Source: Leptospiraceae bacterium
Lineage (GTDB): Bacteria > Spirochaetota > Leptospiria > Turneriellales > Turneriellaceae
Direction: 5' to 3'
Assembly (NCBI GenBank): GCA_020440825.1
Contig: JAGRNJ010000015.1
Span: 1 to 64,000 of the forward strand
Length of the DNA: 64,000 nucleotides
In this document: positions 1,179-1,944 of the stretch, one piece after another
How positions within the stretch are numbered: position 1 is the first letter of the stretch
Layout: the number at the start of each line of letters is the position of its first letter
Translations under genes and position numbers: made by a program
The notes under the pieces: generated by a model
What the model was told of the DNA's origin: nothing
Seen by the model: the letters and a program-made list of their open reading frames with translations, nothing else
The model's database searches: none

Positions 1179-1389
1179 ACAGGTTCAGAGAGGATACTGG
1201 GAATCTTTTCTGTCGGCTGTTCAGGCATGCCTATGGGATAGAGCTAGATATCCGCCGATTGAAAATACTCACTTCAGATTTAAGAGCCGGTCATGAAGCT
1301 ATAGTAAAATCAATCTAAAATTTTCTAAGGAAGCTCGTCGTAACTGAAATTTAAAAAAAATTCAAAATTCGTGAAACAAAATACCCATA

Positions 1390-1405
1390 TTACGGTATTC
1401 CGTAA
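1390..1405. promoter_or_regulatory. Palindrome TTACGG-TATT-CCGTAA at the DUF1564 start codon
   Basis: Six-base arms TTACGG and CCGTAA flank TATT and end two bases before the ATG at 1408, where the ribosome site would be. The same arms recur twice inside the gene (centres near 1608 and 1848). A position on the translation start suggests an operator or an RNA-level control element. No conventional Shine-Dalgarno sequence is visible here. Confidence 0.55.
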
Positions 1406-1407
1406 AT

Positions 1408-1944
1408 ATGAAGTGCAATAGATATGTTCCTGGTACTCAAATCATTGTTGACGCAATTTGGGAAGTAAGACTCGAAAACGGTCTCTGGTCAGAAATAGTA
1501 CGAGCAAGCCAAGTTGCTGGAAAAACCTACTCATGGGTTGTGCGTTGGTGTATTTTTACGGCTCTGGAACCTAAAAATCTCGAGCAGCTCAATGCTACTA
1601 TTACGGAATTCCATAATAGTAAATCGATTGGGGCTTCTAGCAAAGAAACCCATCACCGATTGCAGCTCTGTCTTTATGGAGAAGACCAATATCTTTTCAA
1701 AGCTTGTGCCCTGAAGTTCAGGGTTTCAGTGACTTCTCTAATTCGGGCAGCGATTCGAATGTACTTGGATCAAATTCTCAGTGGTTCTATTTCACACGGG
1801 GAATTTATTTCCGAAGGTTTGAAACATATCAAATCAGCTATTACGGAATTCCGTAATAGTAGCTACAGATTAGATGAGATAAAGACTATCTTCCAACATT
1901 TTCCACGACTACCAACCCCGCGAGGACATAGCCCTCCCCCATGA
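1408..1944 (+). CDS. DUF1564 family protein
   Basis: The 178-residue product carries the DUF1564 signature: KTYSWVVRWCIF around residue 40 and HRLQLCLYGEDQYLFKACALKFRVSVTSLIRAAIRMYL around residues 85-120. DUF1564 is a family of unknown function known mainly from Leptospira, where paralogues are numerous. The SVTSLIRAAIRMYL segment could be a helix-turn-helix or ribbon-helix-helix-like element, so DNA binding is a possibility but not shown. Two near-identical palindromes inside the gene encode ITEFHNS and ITEFRNS, exactly 80 codons apart. The C-terminus runs into the upstream region of the next gene, with the stop 10 bases before its GTG. Confidence 0.8.
   Translation: MKCNRYVPGTQIIVDAIWEVRLENGLWSEIVRASQVAGKTYSWVVRWCIFTALEPKNLEQLNATITEFHNSKSIGASSKETHHRLQLCLYGEDQYLFKACALKFRVSVTSLIRAAIRMYLDQILSGSISHGEFISEGLKHIKSAITEFRNSSYRLDEIKTIFQHFPRLPTPRGHSPPP
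1596..1621. repeat. Internal copy 2 of the DUF1564 palindrome
   Basis: A 26-bp palindrome with one mismatched pair, centred on TTACGGAATTCCATAA (1601-1616). It lies in the coding sequence and reads T-I-T-E-F-H-N-S. The 12-bp core TTACGGAATTCC is identical to copy 3, and the codon phase is the same. Confidence 0.65.
1838..1859. repeat. Internal copy 3 of the DUF1564 palindrome
   Basis: A 22-bp perfect palindrome centred on TTACGGAATTCCGTAA (1841-1856). Its centre is 240 bp (80 codons) from that of copy 2. It reads A-I-T-E-F-R-N-S in the protein. Copies 2 and 3 agree across ATTACGGAATTCC and AATAGT, which points to DNA-level constraint or a recent duplication. Confidence 0.65.

Follow-up and report, generated by a model that had tools for sequence, protein, structure and literature searches.

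The question raised by this locus is why nearly the same palindrome is found three times around one gene of a 64 kb stretch of DNA (the window, meaning the whole stretch analysed), once at the start codon and twice within the coding sequence. Palindrome 1 (ATTACGGTATTCCGTAAA, 1389..1406; core TTACGGTATTCCGTAA, 1390-1405) overlaps the -10 element and the start, and its core ends 2 bases 5' of the ATG at 1408. Palindromes 2 and 3 (1600..1617 and 1840..1857; CDS nt 193-210 and 433-450; cores TTACGGAATTCCATAA at 1601-1616 and TTACGGAATTCCGTAA at 1841-1856, respectively) lie in the linker between the two predicted ribbon-helix-helix (RHH) units and in the C-terminal tail of the encoded protein, respectively, and the arms of palindrome 3 are perfect. 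The spacing of the two intragenic palindromes is 240 nt, or 80 codons, with identical reading phase, and they extend to one near-perfect 26-mer and one perfect 22-mer; the coordinates of the original prediction (three palindromes, extensions of 22-26 bp, the same phase) were thus confirmed. With <=3 mismatches allowed, exactly 3 matches were found in the window against 0.30 expected from dinucleotide shuffles, and 0 of 100 shuffles reached 3, confirming that the three palindromes are real and beyond chance. A wider meaning of the exact 80-codon spacing was rejected, since both intragenic sites occur together in the window paralog only.

The gene (1408..1944, + strand) encodes a single-chain tandem RHH protein of 178 aa, one of 17 paralogs of one unnamed family in its own genome, and its neighbours in the window encode a secreted-looking protein and a large radical-SAM-like protein. 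With 32 family members as input, AlphaFold2 predicted (mean pLDDT 88.6) a strand-helix-helix arrangement twice per chain, followed by a small helix and a beta-hairpin. Predicted RHH unit 1 is at 1444..1563 (+ strand; aa 13-52, with strand 13-23 and helices 24-37 and 41-52) and predicted RHH unit 2 at 1651..1782 (+ strand; aa 82-125, with strand 82-90 and helices 93-103 and 108-125). The Pfam search of the window protein gave a sub-threshold RHH_1 match only (aa 105-122), and weak RHH_1 matches were obtained for 8 of the 32 family members (best 3e-4). The top 11 Foldseek matches in the PDB came from F relaxosome entries (probability 0.94-1.00, with weak E values of 0.03-0.13) and were read as TraY chains, a permuted single-chain Arc being ranked lower. 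In F TraY, one polypeptide forms the whole RHH dimer fold (PMC12117103). By computation, the window protein was likewise shown as a predicted built-in dimer with two RHH units in one chain. In contrast to F TraY, its best fold match in the PDB, the family is chromosomal, has up to 17 copies per genome and carries an extra C-terminal tail, and no relaxosome context (oriT or relaxase) was found beside the window gene. An origin from a plasmid or phage was rejected, as searches for either gave no match.

The gene had originally been labelled DUF1564 (PF07600), and this membership was rejected on the PF07600 searches and on hhalign. No PF07600 match was obtained in the own genome (at E<=1), among the 32 family members or in 17 other genomes of the order, whereas PF07600 is present in other families of the class; hhalign against ten DUF1564 proteins gave 9% probability over 32 columns, with one RHH-like segment aligned. 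Leptospira DUF1564 does resemble the present family in being many-copy, in its RHH-like segment and in belonging to the same class, but neither a palindrome of the shared type nor the promoter described below was seen at the DUF1564 loci read. Relevant literature on DUF1564 was not found in the papers searched.

Comparison of the paralogs gave GYTRYGG-N4-CCRYARC, an 18-letter palindrome, as the site consensus. The genome census was carried out by pattern searches and on sequence stretches, its counts being complete, and 130 core-pattern sites were found in the own genome (3.78 Mb) against 15 for the reversed control. As the consensus came originally from family genes, some of the enrichment counts are in part circular; this applies less to the reversed-pattern controls, the covariation and the tests in other genomes. 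A site, complete or decayed, is present within the CDS or <=172 bp upstream in 16 of the 17 paralogs, and only the most divergent paralog is without one. The positions shift among paralogs (CDS nt 193, 303, 433 and 463; upstream from -19 to -172), the nt 303 site being within RHH2 in a different reading frame and the nt 433 and 463 sites in the tail. The position of palindrome 2 is the one common to most paralogs: eleven carry a complete or near-complete site at the corresponding point of the linker (CDS nt 190-193), and its arms differ among them (GTTACG/CGTAAC, GTTATG/CATAAC, GTTGTG/CACAAC, ATTACG/CATAAT and GCTATG/CATAGC), and two more have decayed versions there.

That coding need alone does not explain such palindromes, as had been proposed from the window sequence, was borne out. 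Strict sites within coding sequences numbered 11 in 8.2 kb of family genes against 7 in 340 kb of long background ORFs, so that the site clusters, as had been asked of the prediction, at the window gene's own family, here the tandem RHH one. In 300 runs of a synonymous-codon null, the mean was 0.48 strict sites and the maximum 3, against the 11 observed. The arms of the linker site covary: pairing holds in 89% of the cells when the linker sites are aligned, 4 of 7 pairs are changed on both sides, and the 11 double-changed cells (3.6 when shuffled) exceed all 500 shuffles and all slid versions. A separate compensatory flip, G-C to C-G, was found at nt 97 in several genes of family f4. With the synonymous null and the covariation taken together, the proposed comparison of synonymous sites came out in favour of the palindromes, and the computation shows a site kept at the DNA level.

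The arm type was found to follow the protein. The tree of the own-genome proteins has two branches of eight proteins each, clade A with the N-terminus C[NE]R..P and clade B, which includes C108:10592-11101, with mostly CRKQPP; clade A genes carry only GTT/ATT..AAC/AAT arms (for example GTTACGGAATTCCGTAAC) and clade B genes only CT..AG arms (for example GCTATGGATATCCATAGC). When only non-homologous positions were counted, arm type agreed with clade in 3 of 3 and 6 of 6 cases, respectively (p=0.012). The cores of type A sites are nearly all AATT. Most relatives carry the GCT arm type, so the type A arms are probably derived.

A promoter shared by the paralogs lies at the same place. In the window, a -35-like element (TGAAACAAA, 1372..1380, + strand) is followed by a -10-like element (GGTAT, 1394..1398, + strand) inside palindrome 1, with the ATG 9 nt later; since this -10 is also present in paralogs without a start-codon palindrome, half of palindrome 1 is otherwise explained. 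The consensus is TGAAACA[AG]A-N13-GGTAT, and TGAAACAAA-N13-GGTAT was found at 24 sites in the own genome against 0 for the reversed control, with a spacer of always exactly 13 when 11-15 was allowed in the search. It lies 8-10 nt 5' of the ATG in 16 of the 17 paralogs, the remaining one (C90) having a variant -35 (TGAAACAGA) at identical spacing. As no room is left for a Shine-Dalgarno site, transcription is probably leaderless. In its DNA elements, the arrangement GAAAC-N16-GGTAT is like that of ECF-sigma promoters, with a GAAAC-like -35, a 16-bp spacer, a -10 box and fixed spacing. Other genes behind this promoter include recA (L058), two ssb (L043 and L054), comM (L045) and those for a Golvesin/amidase protein and a permease-like protein, a gene content that looks like a competence regulon. 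Since the paralogs have an ECF-sigma-like promoter in common with recA, the two ssb and comM, their action probably falls in a competence-like state. In the papers searched, no natural transformation was found for this order (competence in Turneriella/Leptospira).

Among 61 genomes, draft assemblies included, homologs of the family were detected in 13, which belong to three families of this order of environmental spirochaetes and usually hold several each. GCTRYGGN4CCRYAGC was present in >=5 copies in 11 of the 13 genomes that encode the protein and in 0 of the 48 without it (Fisher 2e-10, phylogeny being ignored); strict type-B sites numbered 5-77 in those 11 genomes and <=2 in each of the 48 protein-less genomes, five of which are close relatives within the order. 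In the two f4 genomes the sites are few, and 12 of 17 are in or right beside family genes. The arms of relatives occur at other positions as well (CDS nt 97, 324 and 457 in f4; after RHH2 in g5; upstream in several). The computation thus shows a site that is tied to the tandem-RHH family, with exceptions in both directions: G010 has 77 sites, yet one detected protein, and G014 has six proteins with no strict site, only decayed ones. The idea that the site belongs to the regulon in general was rejected, ssb, recA and other RHH families being without it; in the related genus g5, other RHH families and ssb genes under the promoter have no site in the gene or the promoter region. The amidase gene is the only such regulon gene with sites, two of them immediately 5' of its promoter, consistent with a role in transcription.

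Outside the family genes, the own genome holds most of its 73 strict type-B sites, some of them in arrays or host genes. Many of the 130 core sites belong to arrays, and in most arrays type A units alternate with type B units. Intergenic arrays were observed in L006 (1769-2061, G000:C3), L009 (1820-2015, C77), L010 (865-1090, C20) and L242 (1847-1958, C77), alternating A/B or with B alone, with periods of 37, 45, 48 and 32 bp; the array in C20 reaches the contig end. Comparable unit lengths, 37 and 46 nt, have been described for satellites of Leptospira interrogans (PMC6749651). Within host enzymes, palindrome-coded peptides (VLDFHN, ATEIHS, YGNPQR and GYGIPQR) were found in tgt, ribD-like and rluD-like genes. 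In tgt (L236, 507-1703) they make up an insertion of ~29 residues that solved Tgt lacks (query 22/55 against chain 34/38), and in the ribD-like (L239, 1194-1955) and rluD-like (L243, 950-3001) genes YGNPQR/GYGIPQR lie within unaligned segments. In-frame insertion was therefore seen in tgt and is likely in the ribD- and rluD-like genes. It is absent in the hisA and iscS-like genes, where the site is within an ungapped alignment and so arose in place; from tgt on the one hand and hisA and iscS-like genes on the other, both insertion and in-place origin occur. Palindrome arrays have also entered host genes, so that the arrays likely have a mobile-repeat component.

The simplest account of these results is that the palindromes are copies of the recognition site of the encoded protein, which would regulate its own gene within a competence-like regulon, and we give this account somewhat better than an even chance. 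The earlier suggestion that the gene may bind its own DNA has thereby become the best reading of the sequences. One single-chain molecule would grip each 7-bp arm, and with arm centres 11 bp apart, about one helical turn, two molecules could lie next to each other on the same face. Occupancy of a site within a gene or shortly before it would repress or tune that gene, the paralogs being presumably transcribed leaderless from the ECF-sigma-like promoter. Since site 1 of the window gene spans both the -10 and the start, a protein bound to it would prevent transcription; the intragenic sites 2 and 3 may serve as elongation roadblocks or as points of oligomer nucleation. In some paralogs the upstream sites lie at -71 to -172, above the -35 rather than on it, and simple steric repression therefore fits the window gene only. 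Outside genes, the site would have multiplied in this lineage, singly and as arrays, to give dispersed targets or decoys. A broader version is offered tentatively, as appreciably less probable than autoregulation: an undescribed, chromosome-wide site system of this order, in which single-chain RHH proteins, expressed along with recA, ssb and comM in the competence programme, would act on a dispersed palindrome of 18 bp, seeded from the protein genes and spread to intergenic arrays and host genes, with arms that change with the protein clade.

The palindrome may instead be a mobile or selfish repeat, like a Rickettsia palindromic element (RPE) or REP/BIME, that inserts in frame and happened to be captured early by the family. 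The arrays with periods of 32, 37, 45 and 48 bp, most alternating A/B, the insertion in tgt and the unaligned peptides of the ribD- and rluD-like genes are what such a repeat would leave, and in-frame RPEs are documented (PMC2229807). Yet the sites in the hisA and iscS-like genes arose in place, the arm type follows the protein clade at non-homologous positions, and the sites are absent or nearly so where a genome has no RHH family and, in f4, are concentrated in family genes, so this explanation is rather unlikely. No Y1_Tnp/RAYT gene (PF01797) was found in the own genome (a draft, 88% complete), and a RAYT/REP origin was rejected on this ground. RPEs and REP-RAYT resemble the site in being dispersed between genes and in frame within genes; they differ in length (105-146 bp against 18 bp), and here one protein family is concerned, with in-place origins in conserved enzymes. 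The in-place evolution of the hisA and iscS sites and the competence-like regulon (recA, ssb, comM) would suit a self-DNA tag for natural transformation, spread by biased uptake and in-place conversion. Known uptake sequences occur at about 1 per kb, and the density here (130 sites in 3.78 Mb, ~1 per 30-50 kb) is far below that; a tag would not predict the enrichment in RHH genes either, and with no report of transformation in the order among the papers searched we consider it unlikely.

Selection would not be needed if template-switch (quasipalindrome) mutation had perfected imperfect palindromes and so made their arms covary. Such mutation alone could yield covariation at one position, but it leaves unpredicted the confinement to a single family, the repeated origin at several gene positions, the fixed arm sequence and the co-occurrence with the protein, and is very improbable. 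An equally slim chance is given to an mRNA hairpin acting as attenuator or translational operator, an idea close to the RNA binding of the original prediction, which is now disfavoured. Stems of 6-7 bp with 4-nt loops and the frequent location in coding sequences speak for it. It was rejected on the mismatch pattern, C.A/A.C mismatches on the sense strand (10) outnumbering G.T wobbles (5; G.U in RNA); moreover, the only site of some genes is upstream of the leaderless start, and the AATT of nearly all type A cores has a symmetry that a loop would not need.

Read as a protein with its own DNA site, the family resembles the Arc, MetJ and CopG repressors, with a palindromic site at the own gene and half-sites one helical turn apart, but it is a single-chain unit and its site is mostly intragenic and shifts among paralogs. 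In MatP-matS, Noc-NBS and ParB-parS, dispersed short palindromes, often intragenic, are read by one DNA-binding protein, whereas many paralogs and a competence-like promoter are involved here. An uncharacterised, expanded spirochaete family thus gains a predicted DNA target, which makes its function directly testable, and a competence-like regulon (recA, two ssb, comM and one leaderless promoter) is suggested where the papers searched gave no natural transformation. If true, a regulator whose site moves within its own coding sequence, with arm changes that follow the protein clades, would offer a natural case for studying how a protein and its DNA site co-evolve.

In the related genus (G004-G011), a diverged promoter, TGAGAAAA-N14-GGTATTT, was found in 12-39 copies per genome against 0-1 for the control, preceding ssb, recA, comM, the window-gene family, further tandem-RHH-like families and IS91-like transposases. 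In g5, the additional tandem-RHH-like families under it number at least two (L189, L192, L195, L199, L207 and L213; L191, L203, L205 and L209), and the IS91-like transposase genes (L208, L216 and L235) stand behind the competence-like promoter as if the signal had been borrowed. In G009, ~39 nearly identical promoter copies were observed, and several of those read precede one RHH-like family.
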